This document shows positions 5,345 to 63,721 of a DNA stretch of 64,000 nt, piece by piece. The position numbers and the translations under genes were made by a program. The notes beneath the pieces are model-generated. The model saw only the letters and a list, made by a program, of their open reading frames with translations, searched no databases and was not told the DNA's origin. The first letter of the stretch is position 1, and every line of letters begins with the position of its first letter. The DNA comes from Deltaproteobacteria bacterium (GTDB lineage: Bacteria > Bdellovibrionota_F > JAHFAK01). Where the stretch lies: NCBI GenBank assembly GCA_023250585.1, contig JAHFAK010000001.1, positions 1 through 64,000 of the forward strand. Direction: 5' to 3'.

Positions 5345-7060
5345 CTATATCGAAAAATCAATATACCCCTCTTCTTTCAGATAGTAAAGGATATGAGCAA
5401 CAGCTTCATGAACATCTATAGTTGTTGTATCAAGAACAATTTCTGGTTGTTTTGGTATTTCAAAAGGATCACTTATTCCCGTAAAATCTTTCAGATCTCC
5501 AGAACGGGCACGTGCATAGAGCCCTTTACGATCACGCTCTTCACAGATAGTAAGAGGCGTTGAAACGTACACTTCAATATAGGCTCCATAGTGAGAAATA
5601 AGTGCCCTATTTTCTTGTCTAATATGTTCATGAGGGGCAATGGGAGCACAGAGCACAATACCACCGTTTTTAGTAATTTCACTTGCTACAAATCCAATCC
5701 GTCGAACATTGATTTCTCGATGCTCTTTGGAAAACCCAAGTTCATTAGACAGGTGTTTTCGAACAATATCCCCATCTAAGAGAGTTACATGTCTTCCGCC
5801 ATTTTCCCGCAATTTTGCATAGAGTGCTTTTGCTATCGTTGATTTTCCTGAACCAGAAAGGCCCGTGAAAAAAAGAGTAAAACCCTGTTCTTTCTTGGGA
5901 ACATAGACTTTTCGTAACTCTTCTATAACTTCAGGATAAGAAAACCATTCTGGTATCTCTTCTCCTCTTTTCAAAAGATTTCGAAATTCTGTTCCGGAAA
6001 GTGTAAGCATGGTAGAATTTTTGGGAACTGAATTCTTCGGTACACAGCGGTCTAATTCTTTACAGTAAACCATCTCTTGGAAAGGTATAATCTTAATTCC
6101 AATTTCTTTCTCACATGTTTTAACGTATTCTTGGGCTTCATAAGGTTCGTAAAAGTGATCTCCATTTATTTTTTCCCCCGGTTCCGCATGATCACGCCCA
6201 ACAATAAAATGAGTACACCCATAACTTTTACGAATCAAAGCGTGCCATAGGGCTTCTCTTTTACCTGCCATACGTATTGCTAATGGAAGAACTCGTAATA
6301 ATACTGTATCTTTTAAATATTTTTCTGATATGATTCTATAACAACGAACACGAGTATGATAATCAATATCATCTGGTTTTGTTATTCCTACAACGGGATT
6401 GAGAAGGACATGTCCTTGTACTTCATCACATGCACGGAGTATAACTTCAACATGAGCTCGATGGAAAGGATTACGTGTTTGGAATCCAATCACTCGATTC
6501 CATCCATATTTTTGTAATTCCTCTTTTACTTCTTGTGGAGTCTTTCGCAGATCTTGAATATCGTAATGTTTTGGAAGCTCAACACATTCTATTCTCCCAC
6601 CGCAATAGTACTCTTGCGTCTGATTAAAAAGATATGAAACTCCTGAATGCTCAAGGGACGTTGTTCCAAAAATACACTGAGCTTCTTTAAGTTTATCGGG
6701 TTTCCAAATATCCTCTATATGAAATACAGCAAGAGGAACTCCTTCTTCATCACAAAGGGCAACTTCACTCTTTGTTTTTAGAGAACGTACTGTATCAGAT
6801 GATATATCAAAAACAATAGGTATAGGCCATAGAGCTCCGTTATCTAAACGAGCATTGGTCAAAACAGAATAATAATCCTTTTGAGAGAGATACCCTTCCA
6901 AGGGATTAAAACTTCCATTCATAAGCATCTCGAGATCACAGAGTTGCCTTGTATTTAAATGAATTTGTGGAAGTTTCTTCGCGTATGAGAGAAGTTCTTT
7001 TCTCGAAGTCATAGTATTTTTGAAAATTTGCGTTGGTTTTCTTTCAATGCTTTCGATCAT
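5345..7060 (-). CDS. Bifunctional ATP sulfurylase / APS kinase
   Basis: The ATG at 7060 is chosen because it follows CTCGGGGAATA and starts just after the stop of the upstream gene; a TTG at 7090 would overlap that gene. The product has 571 residues. An N-terminal PUA-like and catalytic ATP sulfurylase part carries QTRNPFHRAH (194-203) with the HxxH motif and GRDHAEPG (288-295). A C-terminal APS kinase follows with P-loop GLSGSGKS (400-407), LDGD (428-431) and GLYARARSG. Sulfate plus ATP gives APS, and APS plus ATP gives PAPS. The order Sat then APS kinase is known from some bacteria and fungi. Its place in a glycan locus, with a sulfotransferase at 59.8 kb, suggests PAPS supply for sulfating surface sugars rather than cysteine synthesis. 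Confidence 0.95.
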   Translation of the reverse strand: MIESIERKPTQIFKNTMTSRKELLSYAKKLPQIHLNTRQLCDLEMLMNGSFNPLEGYLSQKDYYSVLTNARLDNGALWPIPIVFDISSDTVRSLKTKSEVALCDEEGVPLAVFHIEDIWKPDKLKEAQCIFGTTSLEHSGVSYLFNQTQEYYCGGRIECVELPKHYDIQDLRKTPQEVKEELQKYGWNRVIGFQTRNPFHRAHVEVILRACDEVQGHVLLNPVVGITKPDDIDYHTRVRCYRIISEKYLKDTVLLRVLPLAIRMAGKREALWHALIRKSYGCTHFIVGRDHAEPGEKINGDHFYEPYEAQEYVKTCEKEIGIKIIPFQEMVYCKELDRCVPKNSVPKNSTMLTLSGTEFRNLLKRGEEIPEWFSYPEVIEELRKVYVPKKEQGFTLFFTGLSGSGKSTIAKALYAKLRENGGRHVTLLDGDIVRKHLSNELGFSKEHREINVRRIGFVASEITKNGGIVLCAPIAPHEHIRQENRALISHYGAYIEVYVSTPLTICEERDRKGLYARARSGDLKDFTGISDPFEIPKQPEIVLDTTTIDVHEAVAHILYYLKEEGYIDFSI

Positions 7061-7073
7061 TATTCCCCGAGTA

Positions 7074-7868
7074 TTACGATAAATATCCAAGGACGTAAAT
7101 CACTTTGTGATGGGATACAACCTCTCCGTGTCTTATAGATTGTGGCTCATAATAGGGAGCCATCATATCATTAATCTCTGAAGGGAGCGGTGCAAGCTTC
7201 CCAAAGAAAATTCTTTTTAAAAACTCTTTACCTTTCATAGTTTTGGGAACAAGATGAAATCGTACTGCTGTCTGTTTAATTAACGAAATAAGATATGCTT
7301 TGAGTGATCCAGTATCTACGGGGTATGCTGCCTTACTTTCTGCTTTAAAACCAAACTTTTCAAGGAGATCTACAAGCTCAGTCGCAGAAAAATACTTTTT
7401 ACTAAAGGGACTAGGATTAAAATCTGGCCATTCTTTATTTGCCGAGCAAATGATTAAAGTACCTCCTTTACGAAGTACGCGTTTTGCTTCCATTAAAAAT
7501 TTTTTCGGCTGTTCAAAGTAATAAATTGCTTCATAAAGAATAAGCACATCAAAGGTATTGTTTTCAAAAGGTAAGTGATGCGCATCTATGCTAACTACCT
7601 GAATACTATCCCTGTCTTTATACTGTTTTTTTGCAATTTCTACATTGCAAGGATCAATATCTCCTCCAACTACTTTTTTTGCCTGTGTTGCCAGATATCC
7701 TAATCCCTGCCCAGTACCACATGCAACTTCAAGAACATCTTTATTCTGACAAAATCGAGCAGCAAAGCGATACCGGGTGTAAAGCATCGAAAGCTGCTGT
7801 TCTGATGCGCCAATACCCGGTGCTTCTGTTATCGAGTTATAATTGGCGGATATATTACTTGTTTCCAT
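7074..7868 (-). CDS. SAM-dependent methyltransferase (Methyltransf_11 type)
   Basis: This class I methyltransferase shows motif I VLEVACGTGQGLG, an acidic ribose-binding residue in VVGGDIDP, motif II DVLILYEAIYYF and motif III VLRKGGTLIICSANK. I prefer the ATG at 7868, which overlaps the end of the aminotransferase gene by 14 bases, over an upstream ATG at 7910 that would overlap it by 56; with 7868 the protein has 264 residues. The neighbours make and modify amino sugars, so a sugar O- or N-methyltransferase is the simplest reading, but the acceptor is unknown. The C-terminal third (after about residue 170) is specific to this protein and may bind the acceptor. Confidence 0.85.
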   Translation of the reverse strand: METSNISANYNSITEAPGIGASEQQLSMLYTRYRFAARFCQNKDVLEVACGTGQGLGYLATQAKKVVGGDIDPCNVEIAKKQYKDRDSIQVVSIDAHHLPFENNTFDVLILYEAIYYFEQPKKFLMEAKRVLRKGGTLIICSANKEWPDFNPSPFSKKYFSATELVDLLEKFGFKAESKAAYPVDTGSLKAYLISLIKQTAVRFHLVPKTMKGKEFLKRIFFGKLAPLPSEINDMMAPYYEPQSIRHGEVVSHHKVIYVLGYLS

Positions 7869-8973: not shown

Positions 8974-9948
8974 TTATCCCTCCTTATATTTCTTAACGTC
9001 TGCACCACTATTGATCATTGGTTTCTTATGACCAATAATTTGTTTAATATCTTTTAACATTTTCTCTACAGTTAATCCTTGAATTTTACGCAAATAATCT
9101 TGATCTCCAACTATAGTAGTATAAACAGAAGGAAGTGCAAAACGTTTAAAATGAACTTTAGGAAGATTTGATTCTGCAAGCACTTCAGCAACAGCTCCAC
9201 CGAGCCCTCCAATGATGCTATGCTCTTCAATAGCAAAAATTGCTTCTGTTTCACGAGCTGCGCTTAGGATTGCTTCAGTATCAAGGGGCTTTAAGGTATG
9301 CATACTTAAGACTCGTGCATTGATATTATCACGAAGAAGTCGTTCTCGAAGTTCGGCTACCAGTTTTAATATCCCTCCAGTCGAAATTAAGGTAATATCC
9401 GTTCCTTTGAAAAGCTCTAATGCTTTCCCTAATGTAAATTCAATTTTTCCGTTATGAACGACAGGCTCTCCAGCTCTTCCCAATCGAAGATAGCAGGGCC
9501 CAGTTCTTTCGACGACGGCACGGGTAGCGTATTCGGCTTCGATAGGATCGCCAGGAGCAACGACTGTCATCTCGGGAAGCGAACGCATAATTGCTAAATC
9601 CTCAATTGCATGATGAGTCATACCTAAGGATCCATAGGCATACCCTCCCCCAACCGAGACAATTTTGACATTGGCTTTATGGTAACAAACATCATTTCGA
9701 ATTTGCTCAAGGCACCGTATTGTTGGAAAATTTCCAATTGAATAGGTAAAAACTGTTTTACCTGAAAGTGCGATTCCTGCTGCTATGCCTGTCATGTTCT
9801 GTTCAGCGACTCCTGGATTAAGGTACCTCTTAGAATATTTTTTAGCAAAAGGTTCAACGACTCCAAAACCAAGATCTCCAACGAGAAGATACACTTGTTC
9901 ATTTTCTTCCGCTATTTTCATTAAGGCATCAAAAAAAGCGTTTCTCAT
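8974..9948 (-). CDS. Transketolase, C-terminal subunit
   Basis: The 324 residues correspond to the pyrimidine-binding and C-terminal domains of transketolase. The ThDP-activating glutamate is visible in NPGVAEQNMTGIAAG (E49), followed by SVGGGYAYGSLGMTHHAIED and a C-terminal domain with IEEHSIIGGLGGAVAE. It works as a heterodimer with the N-terminal subunit encoded directly upstream, which it overlaps by 4 bases. Split transketolases are common in secondary and surface-sugar clusters as well as in some primary metabolisms. Here they could supply sedoheptulose 7-phosphate, erythrose 4-phosphate or a branched ketose for the locus. Confidence 0.93.
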   Translation of the reverse strand: MRNAFFDALMKIAEENEQVYLLVGDLGFGVVEPFAKKYSKRYLNPGVAEQNMTGIAAGIALSGKTVFTYSIGNFPTIRCLEQIRNDVCYHKANVKIVSVGGGYAYGSLGMTHHAIEDLAIMRSLPEMTVVAPGDPIEAEYATRAVVERTGPCYLRLGRAGEPVVHNGKIEFTLGKALELFKGTDITLISTGGILKLVAELRERLLRDNINARVLSMHTLKPLDTEAILSAARETEAIFAIEEHSIIGGLGGAVAEVLAESNLPKVHFKRFALPSVYTTIVGDQDYLRKIQGLTVEKMLKDIKQIIGHKKPMINSGADVKKYKEG

Positions 9949-10793
9949 AGAGTATTTTCCAATTCTTTAAGTGCATTCGTAAACTCATCTCCTTGAGGAG
10001 AACGGTAATGCCACAAAAGTAAATTTTCCATGAAACTTACCCCTTTACCTTTAATCGTATGAGCGATAATACAACTTGGTTTACCCAAGGTAAATGGAAG
10101 AGTATCAAAAGCTTCTTTAATTTCTTTAAAATCATGCCCATTGATCTCGTGAACTCCCCATCCAAATGCTTTCCACTTGTCGGCAAAAGGATCAAGATTG
10201 AGAACTTCTTTAACGGTTCCTAAACTCTGAATCTTGTTGTAATCAACGATTGCAATCAAATTATCGAGTTTATGATGGGGAGCAAAGAGCGCTGCTTCCC
10301 AAATTGATCCTTCATCACATTCTCCATCAGAAAGCATCGTAAAAATTCGATATGATTTATTATCGTGTTTCGCTGCTAAAGCCATGCCAGAAGCTATACT
10401 TAATCCATGACCAAGAGCACCCGTTGAGACCTCAACACCAGGAATACCAGAATGAGTAACATGCCCAGGTAGATGTGATCCATTTAAATAAAAATCATCG
10501 AGCCATTTTTTTGGAAAAAAGCCACGTTCAGCTAGAATTGCGTAGAGCCCTGCACATCCATGTCCCTTACTTAAAATAAAACGATCTCGATCGGGCCATT
10601 CGGGTTTATGAGGATCCACTCGAAGCGTATCAGTATAGAGGACTGCAAGAAGATCTGCCATTGAAAATGAGCTTCCAACATGAGCACTCTTTGCTCGTCC
10701 GATCATTTTCAAAACATCAATACGAATTTTTTTTGCTCTATGCTTATATTTTTCTTCTTCAGCATGTGAAAAAGTTATTCTTCTTTTGGACAT
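9945..10793 (-). CDS. Transketolase, N-terminal (ThDP-binding) subunit
   Basis: The 282-residue product is the pyrophosphate-binding half of a split transketolase. It shows SAHVGSSFSMADLLAVLY, SKGHGCAGLYA, STGALGHGLS and the ThDP/metal motif LSDGECDEGSIWEA (about 154-167) ending in a VDYN metal ligand. It overlaps the sugar-transferase gene by 19 bases and the C-terminal subunit gene by 4, so all three are translationally coupled. Together with its partner it transfers two-carbon ketol units between sugar phosphates in the cytoplasm. It may feed the sugar-phosphate cyclase encoded at 29381-30505; that link is an inference. Confidence 0.93.
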   Translation of the reverse strand: MSKRRITFSHAEEEKYKHRAKKIRIDVLKMIGRAKSAHVGSSFSMADLLAVLYTDTLRVDPHKPEWPDRDRFILSKGHGCAGLYAILAERGFFPKKWLDDFYLNGSHLPGHVTHSGIPGVEVSTGALGHGLSIASGMALAAKHDNKSYRIFTMLSDGECDEGSIWEAALFAPHHKLDNLIAIVDYNKIQSLGTVKEVLNLDPFADKWKAFGWGVHEINGHDFKEIKEAFDTLPFTLGKPSCIIAHTIKGKGVSFMENLLLWHYRSPQGDEFTNALKELENTL

Positions 10794-59821: not shown

Positions 59822-60742
59822 CTAACTCCAATCATGATCATTGTAAAAAGATCGAGAGATAGGCTCTACCTCACGTCGAATTCGGTCTATCTCAGCAGCA
59901 GTAAGTCTACTTTTCCAAATATCAACTGTTTTACGACTATCTCTTCTACTATTATCTTTTTTTCCATGAAATTCTACTACATTTAATGGAGAAGTATAAA
60001 GATTCATTATCTCTTCTGTTTTCTTTGTAAATGATAGATTGAATTTCTCGTAAAGTTTTCTAAATTCCTCAATAGGTGCAGAGGCTAAATCCTCATGTCT
60101 AACAAAAATCCATTCAGGATGTTCCCTTGTAAGAATTTCAACCGTTCCATACAGAGCTTTCCATTGAAGAATTCCCATACCTATAATATCAGGTCTTTGA
60201 GGATGATTTTGAATTTCTTTCTCAAATCTAAATAAATATCTTTTCATTAAATTTTTCTGATCAAGAAAATGATTAAAGTTAAATCCCCAATTAAGACGTT
60301 TTAAGCTACTTACGAAGGATGCTGGGTGTCTTATAACAACGATAACATGCGTATTAAATTTTTTAGCAAACCATTCGGTAGAAAAAAGACCAATAGGTTC
60401 GATAAAAATCTGCGGAAATCTAGAATTAAACTGGCGAAACAGAGATCTAAATTTTCTTTTGGTTACACGTCCAAAATCTCGGAGTGATTCTATTTTGCTC
60501 AGGCTTTTAAAAAAATCATACTTCATATCCACACACTTTTGGATATAGGGATAAAATTGCTTCTCGTTTTCCTGAGAGATATAGGTGTACATCCATGGAA
60601 AAGGTTGACATCCAATCTCTGAAGCAACATTAAAAATTTCCTCATCTCGCATAAGAAATTCTCCTGAGATAGAAAGCATTCTTCCAACCCAGCTTGAACC
60701 AGATCGATGTGATCCTGTAATGTAGATATGTTTTTTTATCAT
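59822..60742 (-). CDS. PAPS-dependent sulfotransferase
   Basis: The 306 residues carry the two PAPS-binding elements: the 5'-phosphosulfate loop IYITGSHRSGSSWVGRML (about 7-23) and the 3'-phosphate element VIVVIRHPASFVSSLKRL with R138 and S142. WIFVRHEDLASAP corresponds to the third conserved block. The enzyme would sulfate a hydroxyl or amine using PAPS, most likely on the lipid-linked glycan or glycolipid at the cytoplasmic membrane. It is 19 bases after the PK-ATP sulfurylase gene, so donor supply and use are adjacent. Nothing in the sequence tells the acceptor. Confidence 0.93.
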   Translation of the reverse strand: MIKKHIYITGSHRSGSSWVGRMLSISGEFLMRDEEIFNVASEIGCQPFPWMYTYISQENEKQFYPYIQKCVDMKYDFFKSLSKIESLRDFGRVTKRKFRSLFRQFNSRFPQIFIEPIGLFSTEWFAKKFNTHVIVVIRHPASFVSSLKRLNWGFNFNHFLDQKNLMKRYLFRFEKEIQNHPQRPDIIGMGILQWKALYGTVEILTREHPEWIFVRHEDLASAPIEEFRKLYEKFNLSFTKKTEEIMNLYTSPLNVVEFHGKKDNSRRDSRKTVDIWKSRLTAAEIDRIRREVEPISRSFYNDHDWS

Positions 60743-60761: not shown

Positions 60762-62942
60762 TTATGCTACAAAAATTTCCTCTCCTCTCTCAATTTCCTC
60801 TAATAAAAAAGTTGATATCTCTTTTCTCATAAACCAATCAGGAAGCTCTTTTCCTGATTTGAGCATTTCACGCGCTTCACTGCCACTGATTAAACGCATA
60901 TTTTTTTCATCATGATTACATTTTTCTACATAGCGATTGCACTGCTGACAGTAAGAAATAGTGTCAAAAAATACAGGCGTTATTCCCAAATCCCCCATAC
61001 TCTTAAATAGTTCTTGAGAAGCATGAGTACCATAGAAATTACCAACGCCTGTATGATCTCTTCCCATAATAAAATGAGTACATCCAAAGTTTTTCCTACA
61101 AAGAGCAGTAAAAACAGCCTCACGTGGTCCCGCATATCGTGAATAGGTAGAAAATGCTCCGATCAATACTTTTTCTTTAGGGTAATAAGTATTAAGCAAC
61201 TTCTCATAACTTTGTATAATAGCATGACTGACAAAATCACCTTTCTTTTTGATACCTATTACTGGATGAACAAAAAGGCCATCGCATGAAGTACGTTCCA
61301 GCGCTAGAATTTGTAATGTTTCATGGGCTCTATGAACAACATTTCTTGTATGGAAACCAACAACTCGGCTCCATCCTTTATGTTCAAAAAGGGCCCGCGT
61401 TTGCAAAGGAGTGAATTCATATTGTTTGTTCATACGTGGAAGACGTTTTATCAATTCAACTTTTCCACCAATGAAATAATTGTCTTTTCCGAAGAGAGCT
61501 GCAACTCCTGGATGCGCTTTATCTTGTGTTCCAAACATCATTTGAGATAATTCCGTGAGGTCATAGGGGTAAATTTCCTCTATCTCAATCGTAGCAACAA
61601 TATCCTGCGAGGATTGAAGAGCTAAACTCACTATAGTTCCTTCATGAAATTTTGTTGCTTCTTCTTTACTCACTTGCAATAAAATAGGAAGAGGCCATGC
61701 AACCCCGTTAGAAAGTTTATAATCATGCAAAACACTCGTAAGTTCTTCTCGATTCATAAAACCTTGTAATGGCGAAAAAGAACCAAGAGCAATTTGCTCT
61801 GCATCCATCAGTATTTTTTCGTCAACAATTAAGCGTGGGTACTGATTAAGCAGAGTTTTATCACACTCTTGAGCAATACGATACGTAAGTATTCCTCCAT
61901 GTGGCTTGATCAAAAATCGAGAATGATCATCCAGAAGTTTTCCAAAGGAAACTTTTCGATTGGAGCTCTCAAATTCATTTATAAGAGAAACAACAACCGC
62001 TGCACAATCAACGGGATGTTGACCAATAGCAGTTTCAGCAGCGAGGACTAAACCGTCAGCTCCATCAAGTAAAGTATTGATAACATCGTTAACTTCTGCT
62101 CGTGTTGGTTTCCTCTTTTGTGTCATAGACTCTAATAAGTTTGTAGCTACATAAATCGGTTTACCAGCAGAATTTGCTCGTTGAATAAGAAGCTTCTGAA
62201 GAAAAGGAATTTTTTCGATGGGAACTTCGCGAGAGAGATCTCCTCTATCGATGAGGAGCGCGTCAGCAAGCGTCACAATAGCATCAACATTTTTTACACC
62301 CTGCCTGCTTTCAATTTTTGCAATAATTCTGGCCTGTGCACCAACGAGTTCTCTCATTTCCGAAACAGCTTCTTTACTCGATGCAAAGGAAAGAGCAAAA
62401 TTGGTTATGCCATATTTTTTGGATAACGTCATGACTTCTTTGTCTTTTTTAGAAAGAACAGGAAGCATAATATCTTGATCAACAGTAACTGCTTTATTAC
62501 TTCCGACAATACCTCCGCAAAGCACTCGTGCTTTTAATGAACCACCATTTTTTTCAATGACCTGTAAAAAGAGAGAATTAAAATCAACATTAATGAGACT
62601 ACCTATTTCTATTTTTTCTACTACAAATCCTGGAGTAAGTGAAATAGTATGTTCATCACAAATGATATTTTCACTTACAATATCAACTATATCTCCTTCT
62701 TTTAGATAAATTTCTCCGCCTTTTACACTTCTATTCCTAATTTGAGCTCCTTCGGTATCAATACATATTGGTTTTTTCGTGTATTGACCAATGGTCTGCA
62801 TCATTTTTTCAGCTACATTGATATCAACATGTGAAAGATTAATACGAAAGAGATCTACTCCAAGCGCGTCTAAACGTTGAATAACAATTTTATCCAACGA
62901 AGCAGGCCCAATAGTTGCTAATATTTGAAGTTTTTTTATCAT
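60762..62942 (-). CDS. Fusion of pyruvate kinase-like domain and ATP sulfurylase
   Basis: The ATG at 62942 overlaps the SDR stop by 4 bases; longer start 62954 is unlikely. The 726 residues fall in two halves. Residues 1-330 are pyruvate kinase A and B domains: LATIGPAS, FRINLSH (R33, N35, S37), CIDTEGAQIR (D62, T63), IIAKIES (K209, E211), DRGDLSREVP (D235), ATNLLESM (T267), KPTRAEVNDV, LAAETAIG. The C-terminal allosteric domain of pyruvate kinase is missing. Residues about 350-720 are an ATP sulfurylase with TRNVVHRAH (HxxH, H537 and H540) and MGRDHTGVG. No APS kinase is attached. A link of PEP-driven ATP regeneration and sulfate activation, or regulation by PEP, is possible. The neighbouring gene encodes a sulfotransferase. 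Confidence 0.92.
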   Translation of the reverse strand: MIKKLQILATIGPASLDKIVIQRLDALGVDLFRINLSHVDINVAEKMMQTIGQYTKKPICIDTEGAQIRNRSVKGGEIYLKEGDIVDIVSENIICDEHTISLTPGFVVEKIEIGSLINVDFNSLFLQVIEKNGGSLKARVLCGGIVGSNKAVTVDQDIMLPVLSKKDKEVMTLSKKYGITNFALSFASSKEAVSEMRELVGAQARIIAKIESRQGVKNVDAIVTLADALLIDRGDLSREVPIEKIPFLQKLLIQRANSAGKPIYVATNLLESMTQKRKPTRAEVNDVINTLLDGADGLVLAAETAIGQHPVDCAAVVVSLINEFESSNRKVSFGKLLDDHSRFLIKPHGGILTYRIAQECDKTLLNQYPRLIVDEKILMDAEQIALGSFSPLQGFMNREELTSVLHDYKLSNGVAWPLPILLQVSKEEATKFHEGTIVSLALQSSQDIVATIEIEEIYPYDLTELSQMMFGTQDKAHPGVAALFGKDNYFIGGKVELIKRLPRMNKQYEFTPLQTRALFEHKGWSRVVGFHTRNVVHRAHETLQILALERTSCDGLFVHPVIGIKKKGDFVSHAIIQSYEKLLNTYYPKEKVLIGAFSTYSRYAGPREAVFTALCRKNFGCTHFIMGRDHTGVGNFYGTHASQELFKSMGDLGITPVFFDTISYCQQCNRYVEKCNHDEKNMRLISGSEAREMLKSGKELPDWFMRKEISTFLLEEIERGEEIFVA

Positions 62943-63721
62943 ATAATACTCCATCCTCCATCTACAACTAAATTATGTCCCGTAACATAGGCTGAGGCAT
63001 CCGAAGCTAAGAAAATTGCTGCACCTACTATTTCTTCTGCAGATGCCATTCGTTGTAACGGTGTTTTTTTAATATAATTTTTTACGAAACTTTGAGGTTG
63101 TGAATCAAAAATTCCACCAGGAGAAATTGCATTTACTCTCACTCCATGGTTACCGTAATATGATGCTAAATATTTTGTAAATTGGATAACACCCCCTTTG
63201 ATTGCGGCATACGCAGCTGGCATAGTCATATCTGTTCCTTCATAGATTGAAAAATCAGGGGCAACAATTCCATAAATTGAAGCAATATTTATAATAGATC
63301 CTTTTTTTGCTTCTTTCATTATTTCGGTAACTTTTTGGCAGCAGAGGCAATACCCATTTAAATGTTTATTGATATTCTCTTGCCACGAATTAAACGGAAT
63401 TTTTTCAAATGATACTCCCCAATCTTTTGTCCGAGGATATGCATTATTTATCCATACATCAATTCGTCCTTCTTCTTTGAGAATTTGTGTTACTCCGTTA
63501 ATAACAGATTTTTCATCGGCAATATCTAATAAAAGAAAGCGTGCAGTATAGCCATCTTTTTTTAATTCTTCACAAGCTCTTATCCCCTTTTCTTCATCGA
63601 TCTCTGCGATGATCACTTGTGCTCCATACGAAGCAAATCCTCGGGCAAATGCTTTTCCCAAAAGGCCTCCCCCTCCAGTTATGACAGTTACCTTATGAGT
63701 TAAATCAAATAAATTTTTCAT
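62939..63721 (-). CDS. Short-chain dehydrogenase/reductase, PtmA-like position
   Basis: The 260 residues are a classical SDR: VITGGGGLLGKAF, NNAYPRTKDW, NIASIYGIVAPD and AAYAAIKGG for the Tyr-Lys pair, ending YVTGHNLVVDGGW. The NAYPRTKDW and YGIVAPDFSIYEGT features resemble PtmA-type oxidoreductases of legionaminic acid and related flagellin-glycan clusters, which stand beside a PtmB cytidylyltransferase as here. It overlaps the PK-ATP sulfurylase gene and the cytidylyltransferase gene by 4 bases each. Confidence 0.88.
   Translation of the reverse strand: MKNLFDLTHKVTVITGGGGLLGKAFARGFASYGAQVIIAEIDEEKGIRACEELKKDGYTARFLLLDIADEKSVINGVTQILKEEGRIDVWINNAYPRTKDWGVSFEKIPFNSWQENINKHLNGYCLCCQKVTEIMKEAKKGSIINIASIYGIVAPDFSIYEGTDMTMPAAYAAIKGGVIQFTKYLASYYGNHGVRVNAISPGGIFDSQPQSFVKNYIKKTPLQRMASAEEIVGAAIFLASDASAYVTGHNLVVDGGWSII

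Follow-up and report, generated by a model that had tools for sequence, protein, structure and literature searches.

What does a pyruvate kinase (PK)-like domain do in the same polypeptide chain as an ATP sulfurylase (Sat)? The question is raised by a gene in the window, the 64,000-nucleotide stretch of a Deltaproteobacteria contig that was analysed here; the genome (G000) is a draft in 164 contigs. PAPS formation is unfavourable and is limited by product inhibition. Natural solutions to this problem are known, namely GTP hydrolysis (by CysN), a pyrophosphatase, and an APS kinase fused to the sulfurylase.

Architecture and recurrence of the fusion gene

The gene is intact. Its open frame on the minus strand (60762-62954) comprises 730 codons counted from the first ATG. 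Translation probably begins at the second ATG (62942, residue 5), because GGAG is found 6 nt upstream of it and it overlaps, as ATGA, the stop codon of the upstream short-chain dehydrogenase (SDR) gene. The 726-aa protein that results agrees with an earlier note on this DNA in coordinates and numbering. Residue numbers of the window protein given below refer to the 730-aa frame and are those of the earlier note plus 4. The earlier note had described a single uninterrupted frame for PK and Sat, and Pfam finds the domains in that order: the PK barrel occupies residues 7-316 (1.4e-69), the PUA-like domain (PUA_2) residues 349-504 and the ATP-sulfurylase domain residues 511-719 (Table 1). The C-terminal domain of PK is absent, as had been noted, and Pfam detects no APS kinase domain in the window protein. 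AlphaFold2, run on a three-sequence alignment, gave a weak model (pLDDT 57, pTM 0.43).

Table 1. Features of the fusion locus in the window, and free-standing relatives of its PK-like domain on viral contigs
Feature	Position	Strand	Evidence or remark
PK-Sat fusion gene	60762..62942	-	726 aa from likely start; frame opens at 62954
PK-like barrel with lid (B) domain, without C-domain	62007..62936	-	PF00224, 235.2-236.5 bits
Sat N-terminal PUA-like domain	61443..61910	-	PF14306 8.4e-42
ATP-sulfurylase catalytic domain, HTRN for QxRN, HxxH and GRDH kept	60798..61424	-	PF01747 3e-78
Family signature LIDRGDLSRE, residues 234-243	62226..62255	-	sequence comparison
Sulfotransferase, next operon gene	59822..60742	-	PF13469 5.7e-8, PF00685 7.7e-6
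Short-chain dehydrogenase (SDR), ATGA overlap with fusion start	62939..63721	-	
Bifunctional Sat-APS kinase, far end of same glycan cluster	5345..7090	-	genome's only APS kinase
Free-standing DRGD-type PK-like proteins	L111:2995-3972, L112:2986-3921, L119:6001-6954, L120:603-1553, L121:501-1238		

The second half of the chain is, judged by its family scores, an ATP sulfurylase with one altered motif. It scores 344.9 against a cut-off of 322.95 for NCBIfam TIGR00339 (sopT) and 419.3 against 387 for NF003166. Its best solved relative is the Sat of Methanothermococcus thermolithotrophicus (8a8d, 1.1e-100 over 369 residues). The two proteins have GRDH in common, but the fusion has HTRN where the other enzyme has QTRN, and carries the PK-like domain in addition; HxxH is HRAH in the window protein. 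The first position of QxRN is His in all seven fusions, whereas it is Gln in all 26 other Sats. The sulfurylase, which had been described as complete, is thus near-complete and of full length, with the exception of this motif.

The possibility that two genes had been joined by an error of assembly or sequencing was considered and rejected, since the fusion recurs six times more (L002, L003, L040, L041, L051 and L063, with 41-53% identity to the window protein), twice on complete plasmid sequences. One homologue, 53% identical, is from a Deltaproteobacteria MAG (L002). Another, 44% identical, is from a MAG belonging to a group of very small genomes (L003) and is a PK-Sat-APSK triple fusion of 916 aa. 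Sinorhizobium chiapasense and Ensifer adhaerens each carry one on a completely sequenced megaplasmid. The fusion is also present in G1010, a genome of the same class as that of L002, and in G841, which was sampled elsewhere in the domain. The architecture is rare: the first samplings, of 379 genomes around L003 and of 395 around L002, each found it in a single genome, which was the query genome itself. No published description of a Sat fused to a PK-like domain was found in the open-access literature searched. The window genome is not the only carrier of the architecture.

Sulfation setting and a possible role in ATP regeneration

The window gene is part of a long gene cluster, also on the minus strand, with glycosyltransferase, nucleotide-sugar, methyltransferase and aminotransferase functions. 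The sulfotransferase gene, reported earlier to follow directly, starts 19 nt downstream and is the only PF13469 match of the genome. Genes for a NusG-type antiterminator and for Wzz-like, TauE-like and CysQ-like proteins are found upstream on the same contig. No APS kinase gene adjoins the fusion in the window, the Sat-APSK gene being at the other end of the cluster. The window also contains a split transketolase pair (8974-10793), located between aminotransferase and sugar transferase genes.

In five of the seven fusions an APS kinase is either part of the chain or encoded directly beside it; the sample is small and represents six lineages, since the loci of the two rhizobia are closely related. 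The kinase is fused in L003 and is the next gene in L002 (after a 7-nt gap), in L040/L041 and in G1010 (L093). In the same small sample a sulfotransferase gene is on the contig of the fusion in five cases: it is next to the fusion in the window and G841, about 9 kb away in L003 and 17-20 kb away on both rhizobial plasmids. A CysQ-like gene adjoins the fusion in L003; G000 and G002 have one on the contig that carries the fusion. The sulfotransferase, PAP-phosphatase and glycan genes around several of the fusions identify the setting as one of PAPS production and use for surface-glycan sulfation. A NodU-type carbamoyltransferase gene (L003:3447-5204) is located two genes ahead of the triple fusion.

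In rhizobia, CysDN/NodPQ together with NodH supply PAPS for sulfated surface molecules. The role is the same as that proposed here, but the sulfurylase is unrelated and is driven by GTP hydrolysis. PAPS synthases, in which Sat is fused to APS kinase (metazoan PAPSS1/2, Aquifex 2gks, bacterial NF004040), likewise join Sat to an enzyme of the same pathway, and the L003 chain contains both kinds of partner. The fusion differs from them in that its partner is a PK-like domain, positioned N-terminally to Sat, and in the window the APS kinase is separate. Fusions of APS kinase, Sat and pyrophosphatase are known in oomycetes, diatoms and E. huxleyi (PMC2705460). As in these proteins, the joined domain could pull the unfavourable sulfurylase step; they hydrolyse PPi, whereas the PK-Sat protein has a PK-fold phosphotransferase and lacks a pyrophosphatase.

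The reading preferred here, which is given slightly less than an even chance, is that the protein activates sulfate for the sulfation of surface glycans and that its PK-like domain drives PEP-dependent ATP regeneration, with removal of ADP, for PAPS synthesis. Sat would form APS and PPi, and an APS kinase, whether fused, adjacent or, in the window, the Sat-APSK of the cluster, would convert APS to PAPS with release of ADP. The PK-like domain would then move the phosphoryl group of PEP to this ADP, giving ATP. ADP would be kept from building up and PAPS formation would be pulled forward, while the neighbouring sulfotransferase would consume PAPS and the CysQ-like phosphatase would clear PAP. 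The idea gains support from the fused or adjacent APS kinases and from in vitro work with PAPSS1, in which hardly any PAPS was made unless PK/PEP were supplied, regeneration being reported as necessary (PMC9885120). The conserved core ligands and the low dN/dS of the PK part, described below, also speak for it. The lack of an adjacent APS kinase at the window locus counts against it, as does the protein of G841 (L051:1471-3660), in which HxxH, QxRN and GRDH of Sat are all absent but the PK motifs are intact; a sulfotransferase gene is located directly downstream of it.

The fusion is the only PF00224 match in the assembled G000 draft, in which neither PPDK nor PEP synthase was found, and the same is true of G003. 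The protein could for this reason be taken for the glycolytic PK of the organism, fused to Sat by chance. This explanation is very improbable, however, because G002 and G841 each encode a canonical PK besides the fusion, the fusion genes sit in glycan and sulfation clusters, the G000 draft is 96.7% complete, and the sequence signature described below differs from that of canonical PKs.

Conservation and altered pocket of the PK-like domain

Like pyruvate kinase (PF00224, EC 2.7.1.40), the first half of the protein is composed of a barrel and a lid, and its closest solved structure is 2e28. The barrel score exceeds the curated PF00224 cut-off of 30 bits. The score for the NCBIfam pyruvate kinase equivalog TIGR01064, 270.8 bits, is below the cut-off of 306.4, for which the missing C-domain is partly responsible. 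By these family tests and the residue comparisons below, the first half is PK-like at most, and the name 'pyruvate kinase' would be premature.

In alignments the PK part retains the core ligands of PEP, metal, K+ and nucleotide: R32, N34, S36, D66, R73, K156, K220, E222, D246 and T278 (PykF numbering) are kept in all seven fusions. The residues listed by the earlier note (R33, N35, S37, D62, T63, K209, E211, D235 and T267) align to PykF R32, N34, S36, D66, T67, K220, E222, D246 and T278. A comparison of S. chiapasense with E. adhaerens gives a dN/dS of 0.031 in the PK part and of 0.086 in the linker and Sat part. Purifying selection on the PK part is strong, and the possibility that it is a degenerate PK domain was rejected on the basis of its value.

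The pocket is nevertheless not that of an ordinary PK. In a comparison set of 42 canonical PKs from many lineages, A243, Q279 and S312 are constant, and M241 and M310 are each found in 41. All fusions have A243D, Q279N, M241L and M310V, and six of the seven have S312A; further replacements at constant positions are G248S, G157A and D127F (6/7). The motifs change together, ARGD to DRGD, ATQ to ATN and MLS to VLA. The window sequence LIDRGDLSRE departs from the canonical one by M to L, A to D, G to S and V to R, but the catalytic D239 is kept. PykF A243, Q279, S312 and M241 correspond to Ala293, Gln329, Ser362 and Met291 of PKM2, for which a docking study reports contacts at the PEP site (PMC11207066). 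Furthermore, K+-dependent PKs have Glu, and K+-independent ones Lys, at the position numbered 117 in the rabbit enzyme (PMC4284704, PMC8835810), whereas the equivalent residue of the PK-like domain is Gln. The statement that the PK site is kept is thus correct for the catalytic residues listed, but positions constant in the 42 ordinary PKs have been replaced by a family signature. In view of these replacements the use of PEP is an inference, as are the reaction itself, ADP as the acceptor and the direction of the benefit. An ordinary PK activity would not require the changes at the PEP site, and they count against ATP regeneration; the phosphoryl donor could be a different one.

Free-standing relatives on viral contigs

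A scan of viral contigs with the family patterns found five PK-like proteins without Sat (Table 1), the viral-contig status of which (L111, L112, L119-L121) rests on the IMG/VR collection. PHROG 25828, of unknown function, matches both of the viral-contig PK-like proteins scanned. The L111 gene adjoins recombination genes of the T4-like gp46/gp47 type, identified by eye, and an APSK-like kinase and a small HxGH nucleotidyltransferase are encoded upstream. The L112 gene is flanked by a Sulfotransfer_3 gene and by a relative of the small nucleotidyltransferase of L111. The L121 protein lacks the lid, the carrier of R73 and K156, which also counts against ATP regeneration; a weak Sulfotransfer_3 match is found about 5 kb away. 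A transketolase-type gene follows the PK-like gene of L121. The ORFs after the PK-like genes of L119 and L120 resemble sulfotransferases by eye, but were rejected as such since Pfam gave no support. In a phage collection, a phage-type query yielded PK matches at 24-37% identity (49% in one short piece), mostly in unannotated faecal records.

The kinase and the HxGH mini-nucleotidyltransferase (L113:6599-7330, L114:5593-6330, L111:526-1295; phrog_10255, 'kinase') are fused in Stenotrophomonas and Clavibacter phages and separate in L111. By eye the kinase resembles an APS kinase, and the pair is possibly a miniature sulfate activator. A sulfurylase identity of the mini-nucleotidyltransferase could not be demonstrated (hhalign probability 1.4%).

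The DRGD-type proteins constitute a PK-like family of their own, with ties to sulfation. L241, D243, N279 and V310 are common to all 12 members, and the DRGD/ATN/VLA signature is constant among them (except for Ser in place of one Ala in L003) and is found in none of the 42 canonical PKs. In a tree that includes the viral members, the canonical PKs form one clade and all twelve family members fall outside it. The fusions form one clade when the viral members are omitted, but no exclusive clade when these are included, so that the free-standing proteins may either derive from the fusion or precede it.

Some fungal sulfurylases possess a regulatory APS-kinase-like domain. By analogy, the PK-like domain with its altered pocket might be a regulatory or structural module, either a PEP/ATP sensor or a scaffold, without turnover. 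The catalytic Lys, Glu, Asp and Thr, kept in all 12 members, and the very low dN/dS make this improbable.

A stronger competitor is a neofunctionalised PK-fold phosphotransferase that acts on a substrate other than PEP and serves sulfate activation or sulfotransfer in an unrecognised step. The substrate would then probably carry a polar group at C3 and be a 2-oxo or 2-hydroxy acid or an enol phosphate. The constancy of the signature, its location at PEP-site contacts in the PKM2 docking study (PMC11207066), the separate clade of canonical PKs and the linkage of L112 to a sulfotransferase without Sat all point in this direction. The direct ligands of the PEP phosphate, the metal and the nucleotide are, on the other hand, kept in 11 of the 12 members, and for the fusion protein this explanation is considered rather unlikely. 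For the DRGD-type proteins as a whole, Sat-fused in bacteria and free in phages, a separate enzyme family performing an unrecognised phosphotransfer on a substrate other than PEP, as a step of sulfate activation or sulfotransfer, is conceivable, with the balance of probability somewhat against it.

If ATP regeneration, the preferred reading, is true, a PK-type phosphotransferase wired into a sulfurylase would be a further natural solution to the problem of PAPS formation, and one that biochemists already use in vitro in the form of PK/PEP regeneration (PMC9885120). If the substrate is a new one, the reshaped PK site, with a signature constant in 12 proteins, would provide a direct route to an unrecognised step of sulfation, which, if real, is carried by bacteria and apparently by phages too.
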